Translations under genes and position numbers: made by a program
Origin: Polychytrium aggregatum
Taxonomy: Eukaryota; Chytridiomycota; Chytridiomycetes; Polychytriales
Assembly (NCBI RefSeq): GCF_025602895.1
Contig: NW_026516338.1
Location: forward strand, 46,366-110,365
DNA: 64,000 nt
Reading direction: 5' to 3'
Notes under the pieces: generated by a model
Told to the model about the DNA's origin: nothing
The model's database searches: none
Seen by the model: the letters and a program-made list of their open reading frames with translations, nothing else
Shown here: piece by piece, positions 26,025 to 61,797 of the stretch
Layout: every line of letters begins with the position of its first letter
Numbering within the stretch: position 1 is the stretch's first letter

Positions 26025-27853
26025 ATGACTGCCCACTGCAATCCATCGTCGGTGCTGGCGGCCGACGGGCCCGAGACCAGCCAGTTGCTCCTCGGCGGCC
26101 TTCCACCCGAGCTTCTGGCCCTGATCATCGGCGGCCTCTCGCCTCGCTCGCAGTCCCGGCTCGCTCAAACATGCCAAAGGCTCTACCACCAGATCAGCCC
26201 TCGGCTCTGGCACCGCTTTGTCCCAACCTCGGTCGAACTGCTCCAGTTGCTGGTCGAGACCTATGGCGAGTCCGCAGACGACTCAACACGGCCGTCCCGC
26301 AGCGGGCCCCTGGTGCATGTCCGGTTCCTGGCCTTTGAGCGATTCAGGCCCGCAAATGAGGTGGGCGAGCAATATGCTCTATGCCGGCCTCTCCATACCA
26401 CTGCCCGCACTGCACATTGCCTGGATGGCCCCCCGGAAACTCACCCAACACCTTGAATATGGCACATTGTGCCTGCATACTTATATCGTATACTGTCCAT
26501 GGGCGAAATATCCAGGCATCCAACGCAATCATGGCGCTGCTGCAGACTGTCCCTCTGCCGAACCTGAGCACAGCCGACTTTCGACACAGTCTCATGGTGA
26601 GTCTGCCTAAACTGCACCTGCCTCCGATCTCTGACTGCTGCTTATCTGCGGCTGGTACTTACCCCGACGCATCCAAATCGCCCCAGATCACCGATGCCCA
26701 TCTGGGCCAGTTGGCTCGCTGCCCGAACTTGACTACCCTCGACCTCAGCGGCATCCCCGGACTCTCCGGCACATTCTTGCCCGGCCTTGCTCGCAGCTGT
26801 CATCGCCTGCGATCCCTTTCGCTCTATCACTGCGGCACGCTCGACAGCCAGTTTCTGGAAGACTTTGTCGAGGCGCTCTGCTGGCCGCTGGAGCAGCTGG
26901 ATCTGCGCGGGGTCCGAGCAAGCTCTGAGGAGGAGAGCCTCGCCCTGGTCCGGAGCTTCATGACAAAGTGCCGGACGACATTAAGGCTGCTGTCTCTCGA
27001 TCGAGTCAACGGCCTGCTCGACGGCGCCTTTCTTCTCGAGCCCGAGCAATCGCATAGCCATCGGGAAGACTCGAATCCGGGAAAGTCTGCCTCGTCGCTC
27101 CGCCAGTCCCAGCCGCCCAGCCCTTCGCCTGGGCCATCGCTATCGACGGGCCAGCATTGGAGCAGGCAGCCCTCTGCAATGAATCTCGAGGGTTTTGTGC
27201 TCGAGTACTGCAGCACACTCTCGGATGTGTCGCTGCGGCACTTGGTCCCTCACTTCTCGCAGCTGGCAACGCTGTCGTTCGCCGGATGCCGGATGTTCAC
27301 CGCGGCGGGATACCTGGATCTCTTTCAACACTCGGAATGCTGCGATACCCTCAGTGACCTCGATCTCTCGCAGCAAAACTGCATTGACGGCCATGTTGTC
27401 CAGATGATCGTGCAGCGGTTCAACAGCATCCGCAGGCTGATTCTGCGGGACTGCGGCCTCACAGATCCAGCACTGGCTATTTTGCATGCGCGAGGACGGC
27501 CCTATCCCACCAGCGACTCCGGCCGGGCGCTGTCCCCATGGCCGCTGAAGGAGCTCGGCCTCGATCGCAACGACATTGGACCCGACGGACTCATCCAGAT
27601 CGCCCAAGGCTTCTGCTCGACCCTGGAGACTCTAACAGCTTTTGGCTGCCGTGCTGTCATTGCGAGCTGGCTTCAGGCCCGGATCTGGGCCGTGACCGGT
27701 GCCACAGGGCCGTACTTCAGCACGAACGAGCAAGTCCGGCTGCTCGCATCTCAGACGCGGGGGACGGAAGGAGCGGATTCTAATCCAGCACCGGATTTCT
27801 CCTGGTATGAGGGCGTCTTTGACAACATCGAATGGGAGGGCGTGTGGGACTGA
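26025..27853 (+). CDS. F-box / leucine-rich-repeat protein, 527 aa
   Basis: Exons 26025-26360, 26516-26596, 26687-27853 join into one frame. Residues 22-65 form an F-box (LGGLPPELLALIIGGLSPRS, then LAQTCQRLYHQISPRLW). Cysteine-containing LRRs of the Grr1/AMN1 type follow (ITDAHLGQLARCPNLTTLDL, LRSLSLYHCGTLDSQFLEDF, LATLSFAGCRMFTAAGYLDL), interrupted by a Ser/Pro/Gln-rich insert near residues 250-290. Such proteins are substrate receptors of SCF ubiquitin ligases; the F-box binds Skp1 and the LRRs bind the target. The target is unknown. The gene starts 122 bp after the transposon end, so the element may have landed in its promoter. The first donor (GTGGGC) is weaker than the others but is the choice that keeps phase. 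Confidence 0.85.
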
Positions 27854-40149: not shown

Positions 40150-41698
40150 CGGATGAATCTGGTGTCGACTATGGACGGGACACATCTGGACGATTCGGAG
40201 CGCCGACATCCACGTCGCCCGACGAGCACGCTTGCGTTCGACACAGCAACGTCTATCAGCGACGACCAAAGTGCGCCCGCACACCTGCGATCCGACCACC
40301 CGATGCTGTTCAATCTACGACATCGCACGACGCCGCCCATCTACCCGATCCAACACCGCATCACGGCCGTATATCGATGCCGCCACTCCCTCCGTCCATC
40401 CCACATCTGGCGGATCCAGGTTCATCGCAGCGGCCGTGCAGGGAGCTGATGCGACCGTAATTCTCTCCCCCCCGCAGACAAGACCATCATCGTCTGGCAC
40501 CTGACCCGTGATGAGACCCAGTTCGGTGTCCCCCGCAAGGCCCTCACTGGCCACAACCACTTCGTCCAGGACGTTGTCATCTCCTCTGATGGCCAGTTCG
40601 CCCTCTCTGCCTCCTGGGGTAGGTATTCGCTCGAGATGTCCTCCTGGTGTACAGCGAGCCGAGATTGCTGGCGTGCCAACAACCAAGCCACAACAAGACA
40701 TCTGATGCAGAGATCAATTGCCGTTCCCTGACACCGCCTGTGCACAGACAAGACCCTCCGTCTCTGGGACCTGAACAGCGGCAAGACCACCCGCCGCTTC
40801 GTCGGCCACGAGAACGATGTCCTCTCCGTCTCGTTCTCCCCTGACAACCGCCAGATCGTCTCTGGCTCCCGCGACAAGACCATCAAGCTCTGGAACACCC
40901 TCGGTGAATGCAAGCTCAACCTTAGCCCCACCGAAGGCCACTCTGAGTGGGTCTCTTGCGTCCGCTTCTCTCCCAACCCCGCCAACCCCGTCATCGTTTC
41001 CGCTGGCTGGGACAAGCTCGTCAAGGTAATGGCCGAGATACGGCGACCGCAGCGACGGTCACGCAATCGCGCGGGCATTCAAATGATGCTTCATTAATAT
41101 TTGCTACTTCAGAGTACATACGTGCTATGAGACAAACAATCACCAAACCACTGATGCAATCGCCCGCGCGCCGCCCAAATGTCGGGAGCTGTGTCCGCAT
41201 CGACTGCCACTAGGACGGCTGCTAACGGATGATATGTGCTTCTCCCTTTCCGAATGCGCATATGCGCGAACGCAGGTCTGGGATCTCCAGAAGTGCCAGG
41301 TCAAGACCAACCACTACGGCCACACCGGCTACATCAGCCAGATCACCATCTCCCCCGATGGCTCCCTCTGCGCCTCCGGTGGCCGCGACGGTGTTACCAT
41401 GCTCTGGGATCTCAACGAGGGCAAGCACCTCTACTCCCTCGATGCCGGAGACACCATCAACGCCCTTGTCTTCTCGCCCAACCGCTACTGGCTCTGCGCT
41501 GCTACCGCCTCTGGCATCAAGATCTGGGACCTCGAGAACAAGTCCGTTGTCTGCGACCTCCAGCCCGAGTTCACCACCACCTCCAAGAAGGCCTCCATCC
41601 CCCAGTGTGTCTCCCTTGCTTGGTCTGCTGATGGCCAGACTCTCTTCTCTGGCTACACTGACAACCTTATCCGTGTCTGGCAAGTCGTTCGTGCTTAA
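39720..41698 (+). CDS. RACK1: RACK1 / guanine nucleotide-binding protein beta-like (Asc1, Cpc2), 316 aa
   Basis: Exons 39720-39756, 39949-40020, 40478-40618, 40748-41025, 41276-41698 give 317 codons with closing phases. Seven WD40 repeats; landmarks are [51 protein letters not shown] and the end [13 protein letters not shown]1 sits on the head of the 40S ribosomal subunit near the mRNA exit and also scaffolds kinase signalling. The first coding exon is only 37 bp, as in other fungal orthologues. Strong C-ending codon bias fits high expression. Intron 2 contains a GGAT minisatellite. Confidence 0.97.
40101..40153. repeat. (GGAT)n minisatellite in RACK1 intron 2
   Basis: GGAT tetramers with occasional GGAC variants. 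The same unit occurs at 9507-9592. Confidence 0.95.
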
Positions 41699-42247: not shown

Positions 42248-44721
42248 ATGTCTGCCACTTTCTCCCTCCAAGTCGCCGGCTCGCTAGTCCCGGATGTCCG
42301 TGTGTCCGTTTCTCACAACAACACCCAGCTCAGGCTGCAAACGCCGGTTCTGGCCAAGCCGCTCTATGCCGTTCCGTCGTTCCTGTATGCCCAGGACATT
42401 CACCCCGACGAGCTGAGCGCTGTCTACAAGGGCGGCGACGAAGAGTCGGCTGCTGGTATGCATCCCGCATCTCCGCATCTCCGGTCGGCCGGCTGCCTGG
42501 CTCCTTGCGTGCCCGGGGATCGTGCACCGTGTCGGCATATCGATTCGTTTGTCCTGTGCCGTTGGATACGGGGCCTCTCATCCAGCATCGCCGTGCTGCG
42601 TCTCGAGCCGTGCCTCACTGAACCTTCCAGCGTTGTCCGGCAACTCGGGCTGGCATTCTCCCTTTTTCAGTATCGCCCTTGGCCTTGACTCTCGGATCGT
42701 GTTGGTCACGCTAACTAACATGCTCCTGTGTCTGCCATTCCATCCATGCTTCTCCTTCTGACCTCTCGAACGGTCTGGATCTCTCGCTCTCTCTCCGGGT
42801 CGTAACCGTACTGGCATCTCGAACTTTGCCATCCGCAACTCGCAGCCCTGGCCGTGACCTATCTGCCGCTCAACTGCTCCCTCGGCATCACCTACGACCA
42901 GGCCCCGCCTGTCCACAACCCGACCATCGCCCAGAGCCTCCAGAACATCGCCACAGAGCCCACCGACTCGTTCTCGATCCATTTTCTGTTCCCGCATGGG
43001 CAGAAGCGCAGCGACTCGTTTTCCTATGTGGCTCTGTCGATGAAGAGCTCCGACAAGGCGCACACCCAGGAAACCTTCCAGACCCTCAAGCGCCTCATCG
43101 TCGACGAAAGGATCCTTCGAGGTACGAAAGCAGCCCGCGCGGCTCCTCGACACCCACGCCGCCTCTACTTCTCGCAAACGGGACAGCGTTGAGATGCCCT
43201 CGCTGCAGCCCTTGGTCGCTCCGTGATGTCTTCTAACCCGGTTCTGCACAGACCCCAGACCCATCTTTGTTCTGATCAACCCGTTCGGAGGAACAAAGAG
43301 TGCTCTTACTGTTTGGAATGCTCGCTGCCAGCCCATCTTTCAGCTCGCCGGCGTGCCTTACGAAGTCCAAAGTAAGTCCATTCGCGTACCAGACCTGTTC
43401 ATGTTTCGCTGCTTGATTCAAACTCTCCGACGGCCGCATCTATCGAGCAGGATGTGTGCCTCTGCCAGTGTGCCCGGCTTGATCACCAGCACCCTACTTT
43501 GTCGGTTTGTTCCCTGTATCCCTTCACTCACCAAGCTCTTCGCTTGCTCCCCTCTGCTCGACGGTCTCTGTGCTTCTCCAGCGACCACGGCCAAGGGAAG
43601 CGCCACCACCAGCGCCCGAACGATCGACTATACAAAGTACCGCGCCATGGTGACTGTGAGCGGCGATGGCCTCTTCCATGAGGTCGTGGAGGGCCTATTT
43701 GATCGCCCCGACTGGCAGGAGGTTGCCACCAAGCTGCCCCTGGGCTACATTGGAGCCGGTGAGTGTCATACCCATAGCCGATGAGGCCTTGCAGTTTACC
43801 CGAACCGTTCTACACCATCAATCACCGGATGAGGGACGGGGACACCAATTCCAGCCCGGTTGCAGAGCTGTGCCTCGCTTCTTGCCAGATTGCCGTCTCA
43901 TCGACTCATCTCCTGTTGGACATCTAGGCACCTCTAATGGGATGAGCTCCAACATCGGTGCCCACAGCCCCGAGATCCAGTCCCTCAATATCATCCAGAA
44001 CAGCATCCGAAGCCTCGACATCATCTCGTACACCCAAAACAACAAAACCCGCTACAGTCATCTGGAGCTGCTCTTTGGTCTACTTGCAGACCTGGATATT
44101 GAGTCGGAGCAGTATCGCTGGATGGGCATCCTCCGCAACTATGTCGGCGCCATCGTGCGACTGCTGTACCTCCGCAGCACCGGATGCAAGCTCTGGCTGC
44201 TGTCCCCCGACGGCGACAAGAGGACCTCCAACATCCCGCCTGTTCCATCCTCGGTGCTCTCGGATCACAGCCAGCACGGGCCCCGGGTCACGATTGAAGC
44301 CACGACCGTCTGGACAGAGTACATTGACGAAGACATCACCAACGTCTCCGCCGTCAACTATCCCTTCATTGCCTGCGACTTCATGGCCGGTCCGCGTGCC
44401 AAGCTCAGCGACGGACTTTTGGATGTCAATATCTGCCACAGCCGCAACAAGAGCGCCTATCTCTCGGCCCTGCTCGAGGGCGAGAGCGGCAAGTATCTCC
44501 ATCAGAAGGAGTTTATCTCGCGCAAATGCAGCGCAATTGTGCTGGAGCCTGGGGAACGCCGCCGATGGAAGTCAAACGATGGTCGCAGGGGTATCGTCGA
44601 TGTCAGCGGCGAAGAAGTCGACCTGGCGCCAATCCTGATCCAGGTGCACCAGGGCCTTGCTCGTCTCTGCGTCCCAGCTTGGTACGACGAGAGCATGATC
44701 GAACAGGCCTGGAAGAACTGA
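42248..44721 (+). CDS. Sphingosine kinase (long-chain-base kinase), 524 aa
   Basis: Exons 42248-42455, 42846-43121, 43252-43371, 43582-43758, 43928-44721, all joined at phase 1. The DAGK-type catalytic core begins with RPIFVLINPFGGTKSA, the nucleotide-binding NPxGG motif. It continues with VSGDGLFHEVVEGL (the SGDGL motif), PLGYIGAGTSNGM and, near the end, a C4-type block RKCSAIVLEPGERRRWKSND. It phosphorylates sphingoid bases with ATP to give long-chain-base 1-phosphates, a step in sphingolipid turnover and stress signalling. The N-terminal 90 residues are a poorly conserved regulatory part. No membrane span is seen, so it is a cytosolic enzyme that probably visits membranes. Length is in the usual range for fungal enzymes of this class. 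Confidence 0.93.
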
Positions 44722-45378
44722 GTGCCAGAAGGGGCTGGTATCCTGTTTTGTTCCTGGGTTGTAGCCAGCGTCGGCTGGACTGATACTTTAGCCGCATCAG
44801 CGACCATCGAATTTCAGTTGCGCTCATTGCTTGTAACGCTTCTTGGTATTGCGATTCAAGATACCTGTTGTGACACCGCCAACGCTGCCGTTTCACAACG
44901 TGAGCAGAATAAATCGATGCCTGCTCTGAAGCATGGATTACCTCCTGCCTTGCATGATAGCCAGCTGTCCATTTGTTCACGGATTCTATAATCAATTGTA
45001 TCGAGTCAGCAGTGCAAATGATGATGCTGGTGCATGTCGTTCTGGAGTCACTACTCCATGATAGATTCATGCAAGAACGAAGAACGCACGAGGAAAGCAC
45101 TACCGTCTCAAGACTAGACGACTATCAACCACCACCACTCACAACGACGATCCGAGTCAATCGAATCTCTTGATGAGTCTGGATTGGCCAAAGTGTAACA
45201 CGGCAGAGCGACCAGCACCCATCATATTATCATTACTGGTCAGCAGAGAACGCAAAATAGAGCCGTGATCCAGTGAGTTACTAGTATGAGAACGTGAATA
45301 TCGATATGCAGCGCAACCTATTCGAGGACAACAGGGTTCAAGGCGATGAAGGGTTTTGAAGCTGGGTACGGGACGATA
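44722..45378. other. Intergenic between convergent genes
   Basis: About 650 bp of AT-richer sequence holding the 3' ends of sphingosine kinase (+) and the NLR gene (-). No gene seen. Confidence 0.6.
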
Positions 45379-48300
45379 CTATCTGAGGAGCACTTCCAGC
45401 CGACCCTGAGCAATTTGATATCCCTGCTCAGCAGCTTTGCGGTACCATTCAATGGCTTTGTCAATGTCCCTGGTGACACCCAAAGAATTTTCGTAGCATT
45501 GTCCCAAAAATGTCTGTCCGTATCTATTGCCTTGATCGGCCGATCTCTGGAACCATGATATGGCTGCAGCGGGGTCACTTCGGACTCCATATCCCCATAA
45601 AGAGCATCGACCCATCATCCACTGTCCATATGAGTTGTTTTGATCGGCTGACTTCGAGAACCACTCGAAAGCCTTTGGGTCATTTTTGGGAACACCATAG
45701 CCATAATAATAACACGCTCCAATCCAAACCTGGCTGTCACTGTGACCATCTTTGGCGAGTTGCTCGAAGATACTTGCTGCCATTGAAACATCCTTGGCGA
45801 TTCCGAAGCCTTGGGCAAGGGAGACGGCAAACAGATGATTGCAGAGCCAATCGTGTGTGGATCCAAGTTGGCATAACTCGGCAAACTTCCGCACAGCAGG
45901 AGAGTAAGGTGTTGTGAATGAAGCACGTCGTACCGCGAGACCATTGTTCTCTCCAAGTGGGAAGATATTCGACTGATTGTCGCGAATGAGTTGGATTCCC
46001 TTCCGCTGATCTCGTTCGGTACCTCGGCCAAGATAGAACATCCAGCCAAGCATGTGGGTGGCGATGGGTTTGTGGATTGGATCACTGGAGTGGTCGTGGA
46101 TATCTTGCCAGGAGTTGAAAGCATCGGAGTCACTCTGTGGTAAACCAAGACCAAGGAAGCAAGCCCAGGCGTGAAGGAATGTTTGGCTGAGGCTGGATTC
46201 ATCGTGTCCCTGGTCAGCAGCCCACTTGTAGTAAGTCATGGCTCGAGCAGTATCAATCGATGTTCCGATTCCATATTCATGACATCGACCGAGGTGGAAC
46301 TGGGCTTCACGATCCCCTTTGTTTGATTGCAGTTGCGATAATTCGAAATAGTTCTTCCCTGCACTTGCATGGCCTTGATCAGCAGACTTCTGATACCAAC
46401 CCAGTGCTCGAGTAGTATCAACCGATGTTCCGATTCCATGTTCATGACATCGACCAAGATGGAATTGAGCACCAGGATGACCATGATCAGCAGACTTCTG
46501 GTACCAACTCAGTGCTTGAGTAGTATCAACCGATGTTCCGATTCCATGTTCATGACAACGACCAAGGTGGAGCTGTGCATCGACATTTCCAGCATTAGAT
46601 TGTCGCTGTGATAATTCGAAATAACTCGTTGCGGCGTTGGCATGACCTCGATCGGCAGCCTTCTGATACCAAGTCAAAGCTTGCACAGGATCAATTGGTG
46701 TTCCGATTGCATATTCAAAACACCGACCAAGGTGATACTGAGCATCGACATTTCTCTCGTCAGATTGTCGCTGTAATAATTCGAAATAGTTCTTTGCTGC
46801 ACTTGCATGGCCTTGATCAACAGCCTTCTGGTACCAACCCAGTGCTTGAGAAGTATCAACTGATGTTCCGATTCCATGTTCAAAACATCGACCAAGGTGA
46901 TACTGAGCACCAGGATGACCATGATCAGCAGACTTCTGATACCAACTCAGTGCTTGAGTAGTATCAACCGATGTTCCGATTCCATGTTCAAAACATCGAC
47001 CAAGGTGGAGCTGGGCTTCACGATCCCATTTGTTGGATTGCAGTTGCGATAATTCGAAATAGTTCTTTGAGGCGCTTGCGTGGCCTTGATCAACAGACTT
47101 CTGGTACCAACTCAGTGCTTGAGTAGTATCAACTGATGTTCCGATTCCATGTTCAAAACATCGACCAAGGTGATACTGAGCACCAGGATGACCATGATCA
47201 GCAGACTTCTGATACCAACTCAGTGCTTGAGTAGTATCAACCGATGTTCCGATTCCATGTTCAAAACATCGACCAAGGTGGAGCTGGGCTTCACGATCCC
47301 ATTTGTTGGATTGCAGTTGCGATAATTCGAAATAGTTCTTTGAGGCGCTTGCGTGGCCTTGATCAACAGACTTCTGGTACCAACTCAGTGCTTGAGTAGT
47401 ATCAACTGATGTTCCGATTCCATGTTCAAAACATCGACCAAGGTGATACTGAGCACCAGGATGACCATGATCAGCAGACTTCTGATACCAACTCAGTGCT
47501 TGAGTAGTATCAACCGATGTTCCGATTCCATGTTCAAAACATCGACCAAGGTGGAGCTGGGCTTCACGATCCCATTTGTTGGATTGCAGTTGCGATAATT
47601 CGAAATAGTTCTTTGAGGCGCTTGCGTGGCCTTGATCAACAGACTTCTGGTACCAACTCAGTGCTTGAGTAGTATCAACTGATGTTCCGATTCCATGTTC
47701 ATGACATCGACCAAGGTGATACTGAGCACCAGGATGACCATGATCAGCAGACTTCTGATACCAACTCAGTGCTTGAGTAGTATCAACTGATGTTCCGATT
47801 CCATGTTCATAACATCGACCAAGGTGGAACTGGGCTTCACGATCCCATTTGTTGGATTGCAGTTGCGATAATTCGAAATAGTTCTTTGAGGCGCTTGCGT
47901 GGCCTTGATCAACAGACTTCTGATACCAACCCAGTGCTTGAGAAGTATCAACTGATGTTCCGATTCCATGTTCAAAACATCGACCAAGGTGGAGCTGGGC
48001 TTCACGATCCCATTTGTTGGATTGCAGTTGCGATAATTCGAAATAGTTCTTTGAGGCGCTTGCGTGGCCTTGATCAACAGCCTTCTGGTACCAACCCAGT
48101 GCTTGAGAAGTATCAACTGATGTTCCGATTCCATGTTCAAAACATCGACCAAGGTGATACTGAGCACCAGGATGACCATGATCAGCAGACTTCTGATACC
48201 AACTCAGTGCTTGAGTAGTATCAACCGATGTTCCGATTCCATGTTCAAAACATCGACCAAGGTGGAGCTGGGCTTCACGATCCCATTTGTTGGATTGCAG

Positions 48301-51300
48301 TTGCGATAATTCGAAATAGTTCTTTGAGGCGCTTGCGTGGCCTTGATCAACAGACTTCTGATACCAACCCAGTGCTTGAGAAGTATCAACTGATGTTCCG
48401 ATTCCATGTTCATAACATCGACCAAGGTGGAACTGGGCTTCACGATCCCATTTGTTGGATTGCAGTTGCGATAATTCGAAATAGTTCTTTGAGGCGCTTG
48501 CATGGCCTTGATCAACAGACTTCTGGTACCAACTCAGTGCTTGAGTAGTATCAACCGATGTTCCGATTCCATGTTCATGACATCGACCAAGGTGATACTG
48601 AGCATCGACATTTCCAGCATTAGATTGTCGCTGTGATAATTCGAAATAGCTCGTTGCAGCGATTGCATGACCTTGATCAACAGCCTTCTGATACCAAGTG
48701 ACGGCTCCACTGAGATCAATCGATCCACCGATCCCATTCTCCAAGCAGCGTCCGAGATGGAATTGTCCGTCGGGATGCCCCTTCTGTGCTGCTCGGTTGA
48801 ACCAATGTCTTGCTGCAACTTGATCGCTGTCGACCCCACGACCTTGTTCAAACCACAATCCAACCCGCATCTGTGCCTCCGATTCACCCCAATCTGCAGA
48901 GATCCTGAAACACTCAAGCGCCTTGCTCAGGTCTCCGTCGTTTCCCCGAGCCTCAAGGAAGCAGCCATGACTGAGGCGTGTCTGTGTGCAGAGTCGACCC
49001 GATCAGTTTGCCATCAAGGTGATCAATCGAGGGCGATCCAAAGCCATGACTCACCCGAATCACCAGTGGTCGTCGATTCATCATGATCAGTGTCCCGTAT
49101 TTGTTGACTTGGTGACAACTCCACTCGTACATTCCATGTGGAACCTTGCACATCTGATCTCCTTGCCGTATCCACTGCGGGATGTCAACCTTCTCCCACA
49201 CACTCGAGAGTGTCAGTGGATCTGTGGAGACTTTCAGGAGTTCCTCGCTCGAGACTTCCGACTGGACAAAGCATCCGTTGTGTCTGATCCACAGTGTGCG
49301 GTTGTCTTGCCAGTCAGTGGACTCGAGCAAGTCACCGTCCAAGGACAGGTTGATCGACTTGACACCGGTGTCACAACCTTCGAGAGTGTGGATCAACTGG
49401 CCTCTGTGTCCGTCCCAGATCTTGATGGTCTTGTCGCTGGACCCTGATGCGATCAACTGGCCGTCACCAGAAACCGCCACAGCACTCACATCGGCAGTGT
49501 GCTCGGTGGTGGTTTGGCTGGTGGTTGAGTTGGTGGTTTGGCTGGTGGCTTTGTTTGGCAGAATGCCGCTTGTGTCGACATCCCACAGCTTGATCGACTC
49601 GTCGCTGGAGGCCGACACAACCATTGCGCCATCCACCGATATCGCCACACAGTTCACCCAGTTGCTGTGGCCCTCGAGAGTCTGCTTCAGCCGGCCCGAT
49701 TCTGCGTCCCAGATCTTGATGGTGTTGTCCCACGAGCCAGAGACAATGGTCCTGCCATCGGATGAGATCTGAACAGAGGTCACATCTCTGCTGTGTCCAT
49801 CGAGTGTGATTCGCTCGCCTGTGGATGACTTCCGGATCTCGATCGAGCCATCGCCAAAGCCAGACACAATCACTTGACCATTGGCCGACACAGCAACACT
49901 GTTGACCACGTTGCCGCCGTCATCATCAAAATCATCGTCATCGTCCTCATAATCAAAATCATCGTCATCGTCAAAATCATCGTCGTGGTCACTGCCTCTC
50001 TCAATGGTCTGCTTCAACCGACCCGTGGTGGCATCCCAGACCATGATGCGTTTGTCGCTCGAACCAGACACAATCGTGGACCCGTCCGCTGAAACAGCCA
50101 CAGAGTGAACTTCATCGCTGTGCTTGTCCATCGACAGACACAGTCGGCCAGTGGAAACGTCCCAAACACGGACTGACTTGTCGTTGGATCCAGACACAAT
50201 CGAAGCACTGTCAGGAAAGAACGAGATCGATCGCACAGCGTCGCTGTATCCTTTGATCGTCCGCTTCAGCTCGCCAGTGGTGGCATCCCAGATCTTGATC
50301 ATGTTGTCCCACGAGCCAGAGGCAATCAGCTTGCCGTCGGACGAGAGTGCAACACACGCAACCTCGTCGTTGTGGCCATCGATGGTGAGGACTGCTTGGC
50401 CTGTGATGGCATCCCACACCTTGATGGTCTTGTCGTTCGAGCCTGATATGAACCACTTGCCATTGGGTGAGATCGCCACAGAGTTCACTTGGCTCGAGTG
50501 ACCAGTGAGTGTCATCTCACACGGATCCCAGGTGGGTGCTGGACCAGCCGTGACCAGGAACGGGATCTTGTCCTCGAGCTGGTCGGCATATGTCTTGTAG
50601 ATCGCCGTCTCCTTTGGTGTGAATGCATACCCCGAGTTGTACACCTGTGGCGCACTCGCAATGATCGGATCGGCAAACTCGCGGATGAATCGATACGTGT
50701 CCTTGACCAGTTCCTTCGTGGTGTCGTCGACGATGGTGCTGGGTGCCTTGGCGATCACTCCTCGCAGCACAGCCAGTTGCTCGATGATCGGCTTGACCAC
50801 ATGTGTGAGCGACCCACACTCGAGCCAGAAGAACACATGAGTTTTGACGAACCGAGTGAGCACCACAGCCACATCGACCATCTCGACCGACTGCCACACC
50901 GGACTCGACTCGGCCACTCCTTCCACACACCACACAAAGTGTGTGATCCAGTGGGCGACGCTGTATCGCTGCGACGGTGTGATCTTGGCTGCGACCTTGT
51001 CCTCGAGGTCGGCGATATTGTCGTGAAAGTCGAAGATCTCGCAAATATTGATCACTGGCTTGTGCGAGAGGATCACACCGAGACATCCCTTGGCAAACAC
51101 CGTGTGGAACGAGGTCGACACATGCCACGGATGGCCAGTCGATGCATCGCCGAGGAGATAGTCCGCCACCGACTTGTGGTTGAACTTGACTTCGGTGTTG
51201 GTGGACTGGCTGTCTCGGGGACCCAGTCCATTGGCGCCAGGATCGAGGACCAGAGTGAGGCTCTTGAGACACTCGCGAACGACGCCGATCTCGAGTCCAA

Positions 51301-53773
51301 ACACATCGGCGATGATCTGCGGGGTCAGGATCGACTGGGCCGTGGCGATCGCCGACACCACCGTGACCAGCTCGGCCGGGTGGCTCGATTGCGAGTGGAT
51401 CTTGGCGAATGTCTTGTTGTACAACTGCCCGACATCGGCGGCGCTGTCGTTGATGTCCTTGATCGTGGCGAGTATCACTGGGCCGTCCTTGGCTGCTGAA
51501 TCGACGGTGTTGAGGATCAGGTTGATCCACACGAATGTCTTGGACTGGTCCAGCAGGATGGCGACTGCCTTGGTGCGGTCCGAGTCACTGAGAGTGTCGT
51601 GCACTCGCAGTCGGTGGCGGATGAACACCTCGAGGTCACGGACGTTCTCCTCGCTCGAGGGCTCGATCGTCTTGGTCGGGACTCCATCGAATGCTGCCTT
51701 GATATCGTCCTCGGGACGGGATGTCAGCAGCAGCTTGAGCCACGGACGGGTCCTGTTCAGTTCGACGAAGCGCACGGCAAGCAGACTGAGCAGCTGATCG
51801 CGCGGAGAACACTCGTCGAGTGCATCCACCAGGATCATCACCGATCCCTTGGGTCTGTAGTCGCCGATGGCTTCGAGTGGATCGGCAATCACAGACTTGA
51901 ACAGATCAGGGATGCTCATCTTGTCGAGGTCGTCCTTGGTGTGGCCAGCATCGAGGAGCTTGCGGCCGATCGGCGAGTGCCACTTGCACAGACCGTATGC
52001 GATGGTGTTCAACACCACTCGTGGATCGCTCTTGCGGATGTCATTGTATTTGAGGAACAGCGCCGACACCAGCTGGTTGGTGGCTGTGAGGATGTTGGCA
52101 ATCTGGGCAGCAGCGACAGATTTGCCCACTCCAGCAACGGCATTGACCCACAGGACAGTGTCGGTGGTGTCTTGGTTGACCCAGTCGGTGGTTTGGTCAA
52201 ACAGCCACTGGCGAGTACCCTCGACATACAAATCCTCGAGTGCACGTCTGTCCAGGGTCGAGTCGACGGGATCGAGGAGGGATCGCAGGAGCGAGTCCTG
52301 TTCTTTGGTGAGTTGGATGGGACTATCCTTGTGGTATGTTGCTCCTTGGACTGCTGCCGTCTTGGTCTTGGTGATCAGGTTTCGGATATTGGGGACAAGC
52401 CTGAGTTTGGTGGATGGGTGAATGAGTGAGTGGATGAGTGAGTGAGTGAGTGAGTGAGTGAGTGAGTGAGTGAGTGAGTGAGTGAGTGAGTGAGTGAGCG
52501 TTCAGGTTGTTCAGGTTTGGATATGATGATCAGTCGGCATGACGAATGACTGTTACCTCTTGAGAGCATTTTCATCAACGGCATCGAGAGCCTGGAGCTT
52601 CATCAAGTCGCTGAATGTCTGCTGGATGGTCATCGGAAGTCCGTCGACCAGTGGGCTCTTGTTGTGGATCGGAAGATAACGAGGAAAGGCGCTCGTGTTG
52701 GGAAGGTATTTCATGAATAGATCGTTGCCATCAACATGTCGCTTCGACCACATGAAGATTGGCTGGATGACAACATGCTGGCCGGTGGTGTCCTCATCCT
52801 TCATTCTCTTGAGAGCGTGCTGGATCTGTGGAGGGAGTGAGGGCGAGAGTGAGTGAGATTGGACTGGCCCACCCTCCAGCGTCGATGCTGTCGGCTCGCT
52901 CGTTACCTCGAGCAACTGGTTGTCTGGCTTGAGGTGGGCCTCGAAGGTGCGTTTCAGACCCTCCTCCGACAGCAACAAGACAATCACATTCGATCGATAC
53001 AGCCCGTTGATGAAACCCTGCTCCCAGTCAGCGCCGTCACAAAGGCAGAGGCTGTCGAGATATATATGGGCTGCTGTCTCGCCCCGACTGTTGGCCGACA
53101 GGGCTCCATGCAGGGCCATGGCATTAACGGTGTCACTGCTGACTCGATAGCTGCGACGGGTGTAAGGAGTCAGTTGGTGGCGAGTGGGTCCGATGAGATA
53201 TGCGATGGCTCGCCCACCTGATGAACACATCGTGAATGTCATATTCCAACTGGCACTTCCACTCTGCAGTCGGAGTCGCTGGAGTGTAGTCTCGAGGCTG
53301 CATGATGATGGTCGGTGGTGTATTTGCTGCTGCAAGGTGAGGGTCAGGCTGGATGGCAACAGTCGGCGGGTTGGAGGCATGTGCCGCTTGGGCCCTTTGC
53401 AGCTTCTTGATAGCCCCTGGCTTCATTCCGATCTCCTTCATGTCATCCACACTGAGGGCGAGAAGCTGGAACACATGGCCGATTGTCAGGAGCAGTTGGC
53501 TGATCGGCAGGGGCGCAGAGCGACATCCATGTTGCCTCTGCTCACCAGCTCGACCGTGTCGTATTCGTTCTCCAGGATGACATTCTTGTATCGAACAAGG
53601 TCGCTTTGCTGGAGGAACTCGTCGAAGGCGCCCCCTGGATCCATGTCAATAACGCCTCGCGGGGTGGGTGTATGAGCGAGATCGGCCTGGTATCGTGGAC
53701 GAGGATGCTGTCCTGTCGCTTGGGGCGATGGAGGCTGAGGAGATTTGGAGGGAAAGAGGAGGACAGAGGCCAT
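45379..53773 (-). CDS. NLR-type protein SAM-TIR-NACHT-WD40-Sel1, about 2645 aa
   Basis: Six exons on minus: 53773-53546, 53465-53218, 53150-52907, 52825-52557, 52400-49055, 48981-45379; every joint restores phase and a domain. SAM (about 48-102) is split by intron 1. TIR (about 150-275): DVFISYRVSSD is recreated across intron 2, then GADWEQGFINGL, SNVIVLLLSEEG and DNQLLE, whose E240 is the candidate NADase glutamate, at intron 3. NACHT: P-loop AGVGKS (420-424) and Walker B VMILVDALDE (517-526). WD40: nine repeats at about 958-1370, with an Asp-rich insert near 1133-1156. Sel1: 1446-2645, mostly near-identical units. The 73-bp last intron (GTGAGT..ACACAG) joins WD40 to Sel1, so this is one gene. 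TIR and NACHT proteins act in immune or cell-death signalling; ligand and output are unknown. It is head to head with the NLR at 54692. The first ATG in frame was chosen; the N-terminus is less certain. Confidence 0.87.
46225..48780 (-). repeat. Higher-order tandem repeat inside the Sel1 array
   Basis: About 18 Sel1 units of two sizes, 55 aa (165 bp) and 36 aa (108 bp), alternate to make a 273-bp composite unit. Recurring landmark TGAGGCGCTT occurs at 47068, 47341, 47614, 47887, 48052, 48325 and 48490, spaced 273, 273, 273, 165, 273 and 165 bp. The units read QxHLGRCxEHGIGTSVDT, then QALxWYQKS, and differ by few bases, including silent sites. The frame stays open throughout. The outer units at each end are more diverged. 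Confidence 0.93.
52428..52500. repeat. (GAGT)n microsatellite in an NLR intron
   Basis: Tandem GAGT tetramers (TCAC on the coding strand) in the 156-bp intron between the TIR-side exons and the NACHT exon, next to its acceptor. Confidence 0.9.
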
Positions 53774-54691
53774 TTCATCTCTCGCCCGAACGCCACCCAT
53801 TCCGTCGACTCACTCGCCATCCACTTGTCGTCAACACTGTGCACACAATCAACCAGCAACCTGGTGTGCTTCTGGCTGCGACTCTCTGATGGCAACATAC
53901 AGCTCTCATCTGTGATGGCCATCCTTTGAGATCCACCGGCTCCAAGTGCACAGCGTCAACGGACGATCAACGAAGCTCCACTCCACACTCAAGGTTCCAG
54001 AGCGGTCAGCAAACGACGCCTTGCCTGCGAGATATCCACGGACGGTGCTGGATGCTCGCTCTGACCGATCACATTCACCCATCAACCACCCACAGCGGCA
54101 GCCATGGATGCAGCAGCCGAGCCATCTCCGTCTCCGGTCCTGGATCGCGAAGCATGCTCCAGGAGTGGATGGGCAGCAGATCATGGGATACACCACCAGC
54201 ACTAGCTGTCTGGGGTTCCTCAAGCCCATCAATAATCGCTTTTGTCGATGAATTCCTCACAAACGGTGAACTTTCATGGAAACAGGGTGTCCCAATCCTC
54301 ATATCTTGGCTGCCGCTAGTATCCGCTATGCTCCAAACCATGACCAAGTGATCCGCAACCCACGGGCGGCGGGAGTCTGTGGATCGCATTGTCATCGTGA
54401 TATCCCAAACTTGAACCTTCGTTCAAACCACCCATCCCCAGACCCGCCGGCACACAGCGGACTGCATCCGCCTGCATCATCCCCGATGCACCCCAGCGCA
54501 ATGCACCGCCAGCGCGGGTTGTGTCATGCGCGCCTTCACTCCGACTGGGCGGAGCTCCAAGCGCTCTGGCCTCGTCCTCCTCTGTCGAGACATTATATCA
54601 AGATTCAGATCGCTTTCCCTTCGATCTCGGGTCTCTCTCATTGATCGATCCTTGCTCAACCAGTGTTTTGTTGCTGCTGCGGCTGCCACCG
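53774..54691. promoter_or_regulatory. Shared intergenic region of two head-to-head NLR genes
   Basis: 918 bp separate the two start codons, with no credible gene between them. Both promoters must lie here. A short segment at 54273-54293 (TTCATGGAAACAGGGTGTCCC) resembles ends of the Fanzor transposon family (TTCATGGAAAC near 25871 and GGGTGTCCC near 18674), so a transposon scar may sit in this control region. Confidence 0.55.
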
Positions 54692-57600
54692 ATGCTCTCC
54701 ACCGCACCCAGCCAGCCTCATTCCTGTCATATCCACGGTACGGACCACGACCTGTTCCTCTCATACCAAGCCCAGACTGATGCCGACACTGTCCAGGCTC
54801 TGAAGGAGGTGCTCACCTCAGTCGCCCTTCGTCGATATGGCAAACCCCTTTCCGTCTTCCACGATATCGACTGTACCAACAATCCCAGCAACCCTCACAC
54901 CAGCTCAATTAGTGCCCTCCCCACCAGCAAGGCCGTCTTCCTGCTCCTCAGCAAAGCCTCGATGGACCTGATGAAGGACAAGGTCCTCTCAAGCCAAGAG
55001 GACAGCGCCGTCCTCGAAATCAAGACCGCCCTCGATCTCAAGGATGCCAATCCCGCTCTGCCTGTCCTTCCCCTCGGAATCGCCACCAAGGAAACCAAGG
55101 ATGGTGTCGATGGCTTCACTCCCTTCTTGCCGAACATGGTGTCCCTCCCCGACGACCCTGCCTTTGCCTCGGTCAAGGAAACCCTCGGCAGAATGAACCA
55201 GATCCAGATGTTTGGCATTCGTCCCGACCAGATGCACAAACGAGTTTACCATCTCCTCAATCTCGTCCATCCGGTTCAAGTGGATGATAGCACCAGCCGG
55301 GTCCTCGACACTGTCTTCTGCGACTCCAACTTCCGAGTCGATCCCACTCACTTGGACACCTTGCTCAAGCAGCTCACCCTGACTGGCCGCGCCGTCATCT
55401 CCGGCATGGGTGGTATGGGCAAGTCCGTCCTGGCCAGCCAGATCGTTCATTTCATGATGGGTACTCTCAATGTGAGCAACAAGGACGACCTTCTCGCCAT
55501 CCAAGCCGAGACCATCGGCACCAAACCGCAGTACAGCCAAGTCTTCTGGATCAACTGTGCCAGCGAATCTACGGCCATCGACAGCCTCATGGGTATCTTC
55601 CCAGACATGCAATCTAGCGACATCAAAGAACACGCCTCGAGGTTCCTCGCCAGCAACCGCAACTATCTTCTCATCATCGACAATGTCGATGACATCAGCG
55701 TGGCCGATTCTGTGTTTGAGCACTCCAAGTCGGTCGGGTTCGGCGGCGATGTGATCGTGACGACTCGGCTTCCGCTTCTTCCCGACGGCGCCTTGCTCAA
55801 TGCCATGAGTGCAAACCTCCCCGAGTTCCAGCAGGATCCGCTCAGGCTTTCGTCATGGCCCAGCCATGTGGCTCTCGAGTACCTGGTCTCGACCACACCC
55901 ACGCTTGCTGCAAAGCTCGACTCTGACGAAGCCAAAACAAAGCTGCAGAGTCTCATCGCCAAAGTCGATGGCTATCCCCTGGTCATTCAAGCGCTCCGCA
56001 GCTATGCCGAGTGTGGCGGCAGTCTGCTCGACGACATTGAGACGAACTTTGAAGACATTCTCCGGGACAAGAATGGTGAAGACAGCAACCGATCTTCCCT
56101 CGGCGCTGTCGTCCATCTTGCAATTGAGGCTCTGATGAGGCGAGGAGAAGATGGCGCCGAGGCGTGCAAGATGTTTGGGGCCGTCACTCTGCTGGGTCCG
56201 GATGCCATTTCCTCTGAGCTTCTCAAATCCATTGCCGAGGAAATGAAGCTCTCTACAGCCCGTAAGTGTGGAAGCGTTCCTTGCTGCGAGATGTACTTGC
56301 CTATCGACAACCCGTCTAACTGCAGCCTTTCCTCCCAGCGTCAACCCTGACGCACGTCCTTTGCGAGAGCGGCTTCCTTCGAGGTGGTGCCAACGATATG
56401 TTCCACACCCACGCCTTGATCCAGAAGGTTGCTCATGATTTGATCAAGCATCGCAGTGATTTCAATATTGACGATATCGAAGAAGCCACCGGCAAATCCC
56501 TCTTGGCGCTCACGGAGTCGCTGGACCTGCAGTCCCTCCCGCTCTCGGATCACTTGGAGCAGTATGCCTGCATGGCGATTCCGGAAGTGCATACAAAGGA
56601 GCTGCACGGCTCCATCAAACTTCAGATAGCCCTCCTGGCACAAAAGCGTGCCCTGTACTCCAAGGCCATGCGAACCCACCAGCAAAACCTGGAGCGGTCC
56701 ATACAATACTATGGGACTAGAGATCACCTCTTTGTCGCCCATATTCTTGGCGGCATTGGTAAGACCGCAGCGAGCCAGGGCCGCTACGAGGAGGCAATCC
56801 AGTACCATCAAGAGGCTTTGGATATCCAGGTCAGGCTCTGCGGCACACGAGAAGATCTCGGTGTTGCAGCCACAATCGTCGAGCTTGCCAATCTCGAGAG
56901 CGCCCAGAGTCGATACGATGCCGCCAACGCGCTGCTTCAAGAAGCATTAGACATCACTATCAAAGTCCATGGAACCCGCGAGCACTCTGACGTTTCGGAA
57001 ATATTATTGGAGAAGGCAACCCTCGATGAAATGGAATTCCGTTTCGATGCCGCCATACAGCATTACGAAGAAGCCATCGAAATCGAAACCAAGGTTCGCA
57101 AGACTCGGCAGACCCAGGTTGTAGCCGACATCATCTATCACATCGGTTCGACCCTCAGCACCCAAAATCGCTTTGACGAGGCCTTCCGCCGCTACCAAGA
57201 GGCACTTGGAATAGTCCGAAACGACCACGCAGCCCACGCTTCCCCTCTTACTGCCATGATCCTCCAAAACATGGGCTTTGCAGCCGCCAAGCTGGGTCAA
57301 TACGAAGATGCCCGCCGGTACTACCAGGGGTCGCTCGACATCAACACCAAGATATATGGCACGCGCGACCACCCCAGCGTCTCCGAGATCCTCTATTGGA
57401 TGGGCATCCTGGCCAAAGACCAGGGGCGCTACGACGAGGCCGTGGCTCTCTACGAAGAAGCCGTAGCCGTCAAAACCAGAATCTTTGGAACGCGAGACCA
57501 TCCGCAGATCGCGACCGTGCTATTTTCTCTCGGCTTTGTCTCGTATCGCCAGGGTCGCCTGGACGATTCTCTTCGATACTACCAGGAGGCACTCCGAATC

Positions 57601-58977
57601 AACATCCAAACCTTTGGCACCAGAATGCACTCGGATGTGGCCCATGTGCTCTACAGCCTCGGCGAAACCAAGAGAGCCCAGCGACAGCTGGACGATGCCA
57701 GAGCCTACTACCAGGAGGCATATGACATCTTCATGTCCATCTATGGCACCCGTGAGCATCCAAATGTCGCTGTCGCCCTCATGGGCTTGGGCAACGTCGC
57801 CAAGAGCCAGGGCCGGATCGACGAGGCCTACGGTCACATCCACGCGCAGCTTGATATCTACACCAAGCTCTACGGAACGCACGAGCAGCCCGATGTTGCG
57901 CTCTCGATGGTGGGGCTCGGCAACCTACTGAGTATACAGCGGCGCTTTGACGAGGCATCAAAGTACTATGCCGATGCTCTCCGGATCCAGATCAAGCTCT
58001 TTGGCACCCGCCAGCACCTCCAAGTGGCCAGGACCCTCATGGCTATGGGCAACAACGCCGAGCGCCAAGATCATCACGACGACGCACTCCAATACTTCCA
58101 GGAGGAAGTCGACATATTTCGCAAAGTCTCTGGCTCCGACAAGCTCCCTGAGGTGTCCACGACCTTGGTGAAGATGGGGAAGATTGCCAAGCGACAAGGC
58201 CGCGACAACGCCGCCCATGGCTATTTCCAGCAGGCACTCGATGTGGCCCTGAAGCTCTACGAAACTCCCGACCATCCGACGGTTGCATCGATCCGTATCG
58301 AGCTCAGCAAGCTTGGTCGCGACCAAAGCGTGGACGGGCACTCGCTCGAGCAGCTGCAGGAGGAACTGGATCTGAAAGCCAAGGCGCTCGGAACTCGGGT
58401 TCACGTCGATGTTGCCCGTCTGCTTGCCACCATGGGCCACAAAGCCAGGAACCAAGAGCAGTTTGCTGACGCACATAGATTCTTCAGCGAGGAGCTTGCG
58501 ATCCACACCGAGCTCAACGGCACGGTCGAGCATCTGTCCGTTGCCAAAGCGCATGTGTCGCTCGGACTCGTTTCCAAGTCACAAGGTGACCTTGATGTCG
58601 CTCTGGAGCACTTCCGAGTGGCCGTTGGCATATTTGAGACCATCCATGAAACCCGCGACCACCTCGACATTGCAAAATCGCTTGCCAGCATCGGAACTGT
58701 GCTGTGGAAGCAGGGCTTCCTGGACGACGCCCTGGACTGCTTACAGGAGTGTCTCGACATCTTTGTCAGAGTCTATGACACTTGGGAGCACTACGAGGTC
58801 GCTCGGACGGTCGAAACTATCGCTGTCTTGAACGACAGGCGCGGCAACCATAACGAGGCCCTTCGCAACTTCCGGGAGGCGTATTCGATCTACAAGCGCC
58901 TGTATCATAACGACTTGCATCCGGCTGTTCAAAAGGTCCAGAGGGAGATTTCTCGGCTCACGAGGCGACGGTGGTAG
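54692..58977 (+). CDS. NLR-type protein TIR-NB-ARC-TPR, about 1402 aa
   Basis: Exons 54692-56261 and 56339-58977 (GTAAGT..CCCAG, phase 1). TIR-like domain (about 18-135): HDLFLSYQAQTDADTVQAL, AVFLLLSKAS and DSAVLEIKTAL, whose E109 matches the NADase-glutamate position of the neighbouring TIR (DNQLLEIQHAL). NB-ARC: P-loop SGMGGMGKS (237-245), Walker B YLLIIDNVDD (325-334), RNBS-B-like GGDVIVTTRL (351-360) and GYPLVIQAL in the GLPL position. TPR array: about 17 repeats of 42-44 residues from about residue 600 to the end, with GTRDHP linkers of the kinesin-light-chain/FxNPase type. NB-ARC proteins oligomerise on ligand sensing; here TPRs would sense and TIR would signal. The TPRs are well diverged, unlike the Sel1 units next door. 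It is divergent from the NLR starting at 53773. Confidence 0.92.
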
Positions 58978-59428
58978 AGGGATGAGAGCCGCCTGATCGT
59001 GGGTGCTCTCCGTGCGTATGGGAGAATGACTGGGTGCAGCATGTCGGCGAGCGTATGAGATCGGGCGAGGGAGTTTGTTCGGCCCTTGGCGGTGCTGGCA
59101 TTCGTATTCGTGACTTTGAGATCAAGACGTGCTTACAGCGTTCCAAGAACAAGATGAGATGCTGCGCAATTATCATCGAACATGCAAGATAGTGTGGGTC
59201 CGATAAACCCGGCTGCAGCAAATGCTGATCACCTCGACAGCCTCCGAAGTGAAGGCTGCGGGGTCGTGTATCAAAGGCCATGGTGATCCAATGGCAGTTT
59301 ACAACAGTATCCGGTGGAAATAACCGAGGAGGGAGGGTCAAAGCAATGGATATTTATAAGATACAATAATTAAGGTAAATCAAACCCTCCGCCCATGAGG
59401 TGCATCGTGTCATTTTTGGGAGAGAGAT
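58978..59428. other. Intergenic between convergent genes
   Basis: About 450 bp holding two 3' ends. It becomes AT-rich toward 59340-59400 (ATATTTATAAGATACAATAA), which fits a polyadenylation region. Confidence 0.6.
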
Positions 59429-61797
59429 CTACAGCCAACTGGTGGAGATTCGGGGAAGAATCCTGGAGACTGCAGTCGACGAATCCGCATAGCACACGAT
59501 CGTCGTTGAGACGGCAGAGAGCATGAAGGTCATCATGGAGAAGAAGCAGTAGGCGCCGAGGGCAAAGCCGATTGAGCAGTAGGTGATGTAGTGGACGTTG
59601 GTCTGGGGAATGGACTTGTCGCTCTCGATGCTAGCAATCGCGGCCAGGCCCGTGATGAGGCCGACGGTCACTCCACCGAGAACGACGACAGAGTCAACCA
59701 GGTTATCGACGATGACCTGGCAGTGAAATGTTGTTTGGTATTTCAGAAAGGATGGAAGAGAAGGAGCAGGAACGTGAAGCGTCAGTGGGAAAGTGCAGAC
59801 CTGGAGGGAAGGTCGCTGTAGCCGAAGCGACGGATGGTTGCATCATCGCTGGCAGTGGCTGCGACTACATTGGCTCTGGTGCGCCGAGCGTTCGCAGAGC
59901 AAGACTCACCGGTCCAAGTCCCTCGCTCTCGAGGAGACGCCATGTTGACTTGGCAGCCTGACAGAAGCTGTCTCCGTAGACGGCCACATGGGCAAAGGCA
60001 AACTTTGCAACGAGTGCAGCAGGGGAGGAAGCGAAAGCGTCAGTCGACTTGCTGTTTTTTGTGGCGGTTCGGACATGCTCAAAGCTTGACGAGCTCGCCC
60101 GACAGTTGGATGCACGGCTGCCTCCAATGCCGATGGACATGCTGAGACAGAGAGTCGTTCGTGCGGAGCTACTCACGTGGTTGAAGTAGTAGAGGATATC
60201 CTGCAGAATCACCAGAATACATATCAGGCAACACCGGATCAGGGCCAGGATGAAGTTGTCGCCGTTATCGTCACCCATGTTTTGTGCAATGTTTGCCAGA
60301 TAGCGGAGGGTCTGGATGATTGAGATCAGGAGAGAGCCAAAGCAGATCGAGCCAAAGCTGCTGGTTAGGGCTCGGCCGGCGGCTCTGAGGGTGGGGAGTT
60401 GTGTCGGGATGTGGATTTTCCCAGAGGCATCGAGGGTTCCCTGGTAGAAAACGAGAGCCAGGAGCCCCGAGCAAGTCACATAGACAACGTTCTGGATCAC
60501 TTGGAGGGTCCAGAAGAGTATCAGGGCTGTTCGTGAGCGGGGGAGGCATGGGGATGGCGTGGATTGTCCAGTGTTGATTCGGTTGTGTGATGGATGGGTA
60601 CGCCGCATGTTAGTGTCTGCAGGTCTGTACCCCTTCCATTTGCACAAATCAGTATGTCGCAGCCTTACCAAGGCCAACCAGCACGGAGATCAGCATGGTG
60701 TTGTTGGACTGCACGATTTGGCCAGAGCTTGGGTCGACGGTGAAGTATTTGTTCAGAACAATGTTCGTGATGCCGTACGATGTGGCCAGCCATGTCACAA
60801 TGAAGAACAGGGAGATGATCATGCCGAGGAAGGAAGCAAAGATCGTGGCCGGGAACTGTCGAGTGATATACGATGAGGCCTTGTAGCTGCGATGATGGGC
60901 AAGACCAAAGCGGGATGAGATGGTCGGCACAAGCCATGGCTGGAGGCAGAGCACAGCGTACCAGACCCAAGCAGCTGAATACCCGCTCGCTGGGCTTTGG
61001 AGGTCCATGCATCAATCAGCCGGGGTTGGATGTACTCACAAGTTGGCGACACCTTCGCTAGTTTCATAGAAGCTCAAGGAACCCCAAACGTACAGCCCCG
61101 CAAGGATGATCACCACGCAGCCGGAAACTATGTTCCTGACGCCGCCGTAAGAGATCACATAGGCACCAATCAGGATAATAAAGACGCAGAAGACGCCATA
61201 GAAGAGGTTCATCATGAACCGGGGGATCCTGGATTGTAGTAGCGGACCGGTGTTTGTGAGCCAGTCATCCACACAAGAACCGAGCACCGACCAGAGCGCC
61301 AGGGCGAATGCATACGGCCAAGGGAACATTGGGATACATACGCCTGAATCAGACCGACCGCAAGAAGCGTCGCGCCAAGGGCAGTCGCCAGCATGGTGAT
61401 CATGGGATGAATAACCTGCCAGAAGCTGACCCCTGCAGTGAACACCGTATTTGTCGGGCTGCCTGGGTTCTGGAGCGAAGCGATGGTGTTTGGAATGCCC
61501 AGGTAGGCCGCATAGACGAAGGCACCCAAGCCTGCAAGGAACAGAGCGGCGGCCCAGAGATCCTGGATCGGTCGTTGGCCGGATAGACGAGGAAGGCGTT
61601 AGATGGCTGGCTTCGGACCGGCTGGACAGGTCGCTGCAACGGCTGCAGAACAGAGCGACGGCAGCAACACCAACCCTCCATGGACGTCGCTCGACGATCT
61701 TGGAAGACTGTTGCGGGTTTGACCCGGAGGCGCTGTTCTGCAAGGGATTCTCGCCCGATTGCAGCTCGGCTTTCGTTTGGTTCTTTTTTCCGAACAT
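59429..61797 (-). CDS. Choline transporter-like protein (SLC44/CTL, Pns1 family), fourth paralogue, 493 aa
   Basis: Exons on minus: 61797-61675, 61562-61342, 61228-61040, 60886-60669, 60526-60177, 60002-59910, 59716-59429; 494 codons, no internal stop. Exons 2, 5 and 6 have exactly the lengths of the gene at 1326-4611 (221, 350 and 93 bp) and every intron has the same phase. Markers: DLWAAALFLAGLGAFVYAAY, ITRQFPATIFASFLGMIIS and ALTSSFGSICFGSLLISI. The short polar N-terminus (41 aa, MFGKKNQTKAELQ) differs from the Pro-rich tail of the second copy. The C-terminus is truncated relative to the others: it ends SRILPRISTSWL and lacks the ELF-x-x-L-x-x-x-W-P tail. The first donor (GTTGGT) is non-standard but fits phase and the family boundary before DLWA. 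Transport of choline or related substrates is by family only. Confidence 0.9.

Follow-up and report, generated by a model that had tools for sequence, protein, structure and literature searches.

The chytrid fungus Polychytrium aggregatum carries two divergently transcribed genes for TIR-containing receptors side by side on contig NW_026516338.1, within a stretch of 64,000 nucleotides that was analysed as a whole (hereafter the window, numbered from its first letter). The minus-strand gene has six exons and five introns, all of them GT-AG, and runs from ATG 53800 to a stop ending at 45379; its product of 2654 residues has the architecture SAM-TIR-NACHT/NPHP3_N-WD40-Sel1. The plus-strand gene occupies 54692-58977 in two exons with a single intron and encodes a protein of 1402 residues with the architecture TIR-NB-ARC-TPR. 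Both gene models are predictions rebuilt from sequence alone; both genes are intact, and neither spliced frame contains an internal stop. They lie at the coordinates given in a preliminary description of this DNA, whose two domain architectures are borne out by the open frames and by matches to Pfam families, with the plus TIR domain recognised through homology. That description also had the genes start 918 bp apart, a figure that holds to the base pair for ATG 53773 (-) and ATG 54692 (+); if translation of the minus gene began at one of the in-frame ATGs at 53800 or 53644, the spacing would be 891 bp or 1047 bp. Both genes fit the description of a fungal NOD-like receptor (NLR), a tripartite receptor of the STAND (signal transduction ATPases with numerous domains) type in which an N-terminal effector domain, a NACHT or NB-ARC module and superstructure-forming repeats follow one another, the effector domain of the plus protein being assigned by homology only. 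The gene pair is real and it is unusual. Its parts are collected in Table 1, together with two other genes of the window that resemble them in places.

Table 1. Features of the divergent receptor gene pair and of two related genes in the window.
Feature	Position	Strand	Basis
Minus exon 1: start (ATG 53800, 53773 or 53644) and first half of SAM	53546-53800	-	gene model, Pfam
Minus intron 1	53466-53545	-	GT-AG
Minus exon 2: remaining half of SAM, linker and beginning of TIR (HDVFIS)	53218-53465	-	gene model, Pfam
Minus intron 2	53151-53217	-	GT-AG
Minus exon 3: TIR core (YR...GADW...LLLSEEGL...LLE), candidate catalytic Glu249 (numbered from ATG 53800)	52907-53150	-	gene model, Pfam, motifs
Minus intron 3, 81 nt	52826-52906	-	LEI alignment to plus TIR
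Minus exon 4: last part of TIR, linker	52557-52825	-	gene model, TIR alignment
Minus intron 4, with GTGA tetranucleotide array	52401-52556	-	gene model, repeat finding
Minus exon 5: NACHT/NPHP3_N ~52219-51716, WD40 ~50521-49346	49055-52400	-	Pfam, gene model
Minus intron 5, linking WD40 to Sel1 (GTGAGT, CTGAT branch, CACAG)	48982-49054	-	splice signals, phase
Minus exon 6: Sel1 array (18 LGRC-type units, some near-identical) and tail common with kinase gene	45379-48981	-	Pfam, repeat comparison
Divergent intergenic region	53801-54691	.	no supported gene, no TATA-like match
Plus exon 1: TIR ~54746-55150 (candidate catalytic Glu109), NB-ARC ~55388-56110	54692-56261	+	Pfam, TIR alignment
Plus intron (GTAAGT, CTAAC branch, CCCAG)	56262-56338	+	splice signals
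Plus exon 2: last part of NB module (FHTHALIQ), TPR array	56339-58977	+	Pfam, repeat motif
Protein kinase-Sel1 gene (open reading frame, stop to stop); possible donor or guardee	18741-21008	-	Pfam, tblastn
RACK1-like WD40 gene	~40477-41686		tblastn

Nothing had been reported between the two genes, and the region from 53801 to 54691 indeed contains no supported gene and no TATA-like match; its reading frames have codon scores of -0.10 to -0.33, and the plus gene scores +0.147. Codon score is a weak measure at this locus because the minus gene as a whole reaches only +0.027, its Sel1 exon falls to -0.115 and its first exon scores +0.084 from ATG 53773 and -0.195 from about 53645. A 13-nt inverted repeat whose arms are 809 nt apart was considered as a promoter element and is likely to be a chance occurrence. 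A CTRAY branch site lies 19-21 nt from the acceptor in four of the six introns of the pair. The sole CTRAY match in intron 4 of the minus gene is 129 nt from its acceptor, and the same intron holds an array of about 20 copies of the tetranucleotide GTGA (52418-52498). Intron 3, which is in frame, free of stops and devoid of a CTRAY branch site, is the least certain of the pair; it was retained in the model because the plus TIR domain crosses that site without an insert.

The TIR domain of the minus protein, taken alone, matches the Pfam family TIR_2 with an E value of 2.3e-4 and 22.1 bits, which is significant but below the curated cut-off of 28 bits for that family; in a long construct the E value was 7.8e-4, and no TIR match was returned from NCBIfam, PADLOC or PHROGs. 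The corresponding domain of the plus protein matched no family in Pfam or in those three collections. It is identified as a TIR domain because it is homologous to that of the minus protein, with 27% identity over 146 positions (49 bits) and a Smith-Waterman score of 111, where 2000 shuffles averaged 31 and never exceeded 62. Both domains contain an LEI..AL motif with an aligned glutamate, Glu249 in the minus protein and Glu109 in the plus protein, which would lie at the position of the catalytic residue of the TIR family and is a candidate for that role. Searches of PDB sequences with the TIR domains alone matched nothing, and the eight chains matched by the SAM-TIR stretch are all SAM domains, judged by molecule name and by which part of the query they cover. 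A third TIR domain was not detected in the window by tblastn, the next match having an E value of 2.1.

Beyond their TIR domains the two proteins are built differently. In Pfam searches with the spliced minus protein SAM_1 was found at 9.1e-8 and, among the matches listed (25 of 56 families), NPHP3_N at 2.1e-27, followed by WD40 at 2.9e-83 and by Sel1 at 3.1e-251 in 22 stretches; NPHP3_N is presumably a NACHT-like P-loop domain. The plus protein matched NB-ARC (3.9e-9) and TPR_12 (4.4e-102), and its nucleotide-binding (NB) part gave a match to the NCBIfam family FxSxx_TPR that falls below the cut-off (6.2e-11, 41.5 of 300 bits). The strings AVAGVGKS and LVDALDEC in the minus protein and GMGGMGKS, IIDNVDD and GYPL in the plus protein are what we take to be NB motifs, and FHTHALIQ in the plus protein is presumably MHD-like. 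These results agree with the preliminary description in giving the pair different NB modules and three kinds of repeat (WD40, Sel1 and TPR). Its further statement that the genes are not simple duplicates stands for the repeats and for the NB domains, whose Smith-Waterman score of 51 (1000 shuffles averaged 38 and reached 63) reveals no clear pairwise similarity, but not for the TIR domains, which are homologous. Since the TIR domains are homologous, the NB domains not detectably so and the repeats unlike, the pair consists of related TIR domains on two different chassis. Such an arrangement could mean that the two proteins meet via their TIR domains; alternatively, it could mean that this genome merely uses one TIR family.

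The repeat arrays differ in how alike their units are. The Sel1 array consists of 18 units with an LGRC motif whose DNA identity averages 88% (median 92%). Among the units lying within residues 1550-2190, identity reaches 94.1% in the 55-residue class (eight of its 11 units compared) and 99.3% in the 36-residue class (five of six); the last of the 18 units belongs to no class. The WD40 units average 60% DNA identity (n=7) and the TPR units 49% (n=13), both sets having been located by motif so that some repeats are uncounted. Near-identical copies of the kind left by concerted evolution are therefore found in the Sel1 array and not in the WD40 or TPR arrays: recent homogenisation is confined to Sel1. 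At 46001-48000, within the Sel1 array, the G+C content drops to 0.47; the 2-kb stretches on either side have 0.51-0.52, and values elsewhere in the window are 0.54-0.65. A 27-bp tandem repeat in two copies (49920-49972) lies in a stretch that encodes a very acidic, Asp-rich insert between WD40 blades of the minus protein.

The Sel1 exon probably belongs to the same gene as the WD40 repeats. The intron that would join them has a GTGAGT donor, a CACAG acceptor preceded at 21 nt by a CTGAT branch site, and the correct phase, a combination present in 0.45% of 2000 Markov sequences modelled on the region, although the pattern was defined after the intron had been viewed. It is conceivable that the gene model is at fault and that the Sel1 array is a gene in its own right downstream of a SAM-TIR-NACHT-WD40 gene, given that the Sel1 exon is in a different frame from the WD40 repeats and has the low codon score mentioned above. 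We consider this very improbable: there is no in-frame ATG ahead of the first Sel1 repeat, the first methionine being residue 45 of the open frame, and the chance of meeting an intron with the full set of signals and phase is 0.0045 under the post hoc pattern.

The end of the Sel1 region has a counterpart elsewhere in the window. A gene 24 kb from the minus NLR gene encodes, by its Pfam matches, a protein kinase with Sel1 repeats, and it has the motifs VAVK, HGDLKPQN and DFG, which we take to be kinase motifs. Residues 2342-2652 of the NLR match the tail of its product with 43% identity (135 of 313 positions, 250 bits), and the match takes in one stretch, PIHKPIATHMLGW, that is unlike the repeats; the remaining stretches of the Sel1 array reach only 22.8-24.3% identity with the kinase tail. 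In view of this level of identity, and of the part that does not resemble repeats, the two tails are probably one ancestral module by descent, and their occurrence in both proteins fits domain shuffling. The NLR thus ends in an additional part with a homologue in a second host protein, as is characteristic of integrated decoys, and the Sel1 tail may possibly be one. Proteins with Sel1 repeats may be numerous in this genome. When the window was searched with both receptor proteins by tblastn (E up to 1e-3, excluding matches that start within 45300-59000), 15 further matches were obtained, all of them in the kinase-Sel1 gene or in the RACK1-like WD40 gene.

Other reading frames were chosen by codon score, and 14 of the 16 outside the NLR genes were searched in Pfam, leaving out 31850-32314 and 42806-43189. 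One of 1250 residues at 13662-17411 (+) contains a Zds_C domain (1e-13), a domain of fungal distribution. A piece of 121 residues from the RACK1-like gene had the RACK1 chains 7olc, 7r81 and 9axv as its best RACK1 matches in the PDB among the best 60 of 341 rows, where designed and bacterial WD40 proteins also appear; these three chains come from the ascomycetes Chaetomium, Neurospora and fission yeast. The Zds_C domain and the RACK1 matches are both signs of a fungal genome. Choline-transporter-like frames lie near both ends of the window (3047-4608, +; 59868-60689, -), the match of the piece 3047-3739 being weak. A predicted protein at 26360-27850 (+) has weak leucine-rich-repeat matches below the cut-off, the best being to an F-box leucine-rich-repeat family, and the frame at 43660-44718 (+), convergent with the minus NLR gene, has a weak YegS_C match below the cut-off and perhaps encodes a lipid kinase.

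Plant TIR-NLR pairs such as RPS4/RRS1 are divergent neighbours with TIR domains in both members, unlike C-termini and the NB-ARC-LRR (leucine-rich repeat) core twice over. The pair in P. aggregatum resembles RPS4/RRS1 in its divergent order, in the TIR domain of each protein and in the extra C-terminal part of one member that is similar to another host protein. It differs in joining a NACHT-WD40-Sel1 protein to an NB-ARC-TPR protein, with NB domains that are not detectably similar. Like SARM1, the minus protein has SAM and TIR within one chain; in the SARM1-type proteins described in PMC7075850 the TIR domain is C-terminal and is accompanied by SAM domains, by Arm repeats or by both, whereas here SAM-TIR forms the N-terminus of an NLR.

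Paired NLR genes were thought by the preliminary description to be undescribed in fungi. This was wrong, because passages of PMC12258605 report 13 head-to-head pairs, spread over 11 genomes, among 225 two-gene clusters of Sordariales. According to the same passages, 602 of 2349 Sordariales NLRs (26%) are clustered, 16 of 272 clusters consist of paralogous copies, and nine kinase domains found in NLRs are good candidates for integrated decoys. The Sordariales pairs, like ours, consist of two divergent NLR genes, most of theirs being complete tripartite receptors, and putative decoy domains are described in other NLRs of that study. They differ in that "TIR" as a whole word has no occurrence in the main text of PMC12258605, and both members of the pair in P. 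aggregatum carry this domain. TIR NLRs have been reported from Chytridiomycota (passages of PMC9815663) and are described as a small group in fungi, with TIR domains commonly turning over NAD+ (passages of PMC10197012); the Pfam family PF01582 was, according to part of PMC2939053, absent from the fungal proteins surveyed there. These reports share with our genes an N-terminal TIR domain on a fungal NB receptor, but the descriptions among the matches listed include neither a SAM-TIR-NACHT-WD40-Sel1 protein nor a TIR/TIR pair. The HET-NACHT-WD40 (HNWD) proteins of Podospora, as portrayed in passages of PMC12881547, are similar in having a TIR-related N-terminal domain, a NACHT module, WD40 repeats and concerted evolution of repeats; here it is the Sel1 array that has been homogenised while the WD40 repeats have diverged. 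In the literature searched, with preprints and supplements outside its scope, neither a TIR/TIR pair in a fungus nor the SAM-TIR-NACHT-WD40-Sel1 architecture was among the matches listed. Head-to-head fungal NLR genes and TIR NLRs in Chytridiomycota were thus known already.

These observations allow us to propose, tentatively and as a possibility somewhat short of an even chance, that the two STAND/NLR-type receptors, each with its N-terminal TIR domain, act as a co-regulated but unequal pair. In STAND receptors a ligand at the repeats drives oligomerisation of the NB domains, which gathers the TIR domains. We infer a scheme for the pair in which a ligand, or a host protein that has been modified, would bind at the repeats and cause the NB domains to oligomerise and so bring the TIR domains together, and in which the gathered TIR domains would degrade NAD+ or produce a nucleotide signal, with cell death as the outcome. 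Of the two, the minus protein would more likely be the sensor, since it has the Sel1 array that is undergoing homogenisation and that ends in a tail in common with a host kinase-Sel1 protein. The plus protein, whose TPR array is old and stable, would be the likelier partner, and the two could meet via their related TIR domains. The more ambitious version of this proposal, an independent fungal counterpart of RPS4/RRS1 in which unlike NB chassis assemble through sister TIR domains and the decoy of the sensor is a Sel1 tail that was copied from the kinase-Sel1 protein and has grown through rapid turnover of its repeats, is an analogy that we regard as unlikely.

The two genes may equally be independent TIR-NLRs that became neighbours through the general clustering of such genes, each sensing and signalling alone, with TIR domains that are alike only through the use of a single TIR family in this genome. 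We set the likelihood of this explanation and that of a co-operating pair about equal, because nothing in our analysis separates them. In favour of independence, both proteins have all three parts of such a receptor and the NB domains have no clear similarity, and the Sordariales counts given above for clustered NLRs, head-to-head pairs and paralogous clusters (in passages of PMC12258605) point the same way; yet adjacent genes in divergent order less than 1 kb apart, with TIR domains of one subfamily, are what a co-operating sensor/helper pair would be expected to have, although they are no proof of one. Several points limit the case for co-operation. Divergence is one of the few orientations open to neighbours, and NLR genes cluster anyway (602/2349 in Sordariales; PMC12258605, in part). 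No common promoter element was found in the intergenic region. The compared Sel1 units show no sign of diversifying selection, which is not supported because amino acid changes are rarer per site than silent ones (ratios, pN/pS, of 0.41 in the 55-residue class and 0.30 in the 36-residue class, the latter from very few changes). The fold predicted for the plus TIR domain by single-sequence AlphaFold2 has a low mean confidence (predicted local distance difference test, 36). The G..W part of box 2, seen in the minus TIR domain, is missing from the plus TIR domain, which may therefore have little activity or none. Finally, relatives of the locus were not found in prokaryotic genome contigs, viral contigs or plasmids: none was confirmed among 12 pattern matches to the plus TIR-NB-ARC region in prokaryotic contigs, among 74 prokaryotic and 82 viral pattern matches to the alignment of the two TIR domains, or among two viral pattern matches to the Sel1 exon, and the minus TIR domain had no tblastn match in plasmids. 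Since these collections are prokaryotic, viral or plasmid, this result says little about fungi. The G..W box missing from the plus TIR domain would also suit TIR domains that are non-enzymatic adaptors in genes serving allorecognition or development rather than defence. This we think improbable, as a candidate catalytic glutamate, a role we assume for it, is present in both domains. Some fungal NLRs do control incompatibility (passages of PMC10197012 and PMC12881547), which speaks in favour of such a function.

If the two receptors do co-operate, paired sensor/helper immunity based on TIR domains would have evolved outside plants too, with related TIR domains linking a NACHT receptor to an NB-ARC receptor, and the Sel1 tail would provide a concrete case of a decoy integrated into a fungal receptor. 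Should the receptors act independently, they still include an architecture, SAM-TIR-NACHT-WD40-Sel1, that was not met in the literature searched, and one whose recently homogenised part is the Sel1 array and not the WD40 repeats.

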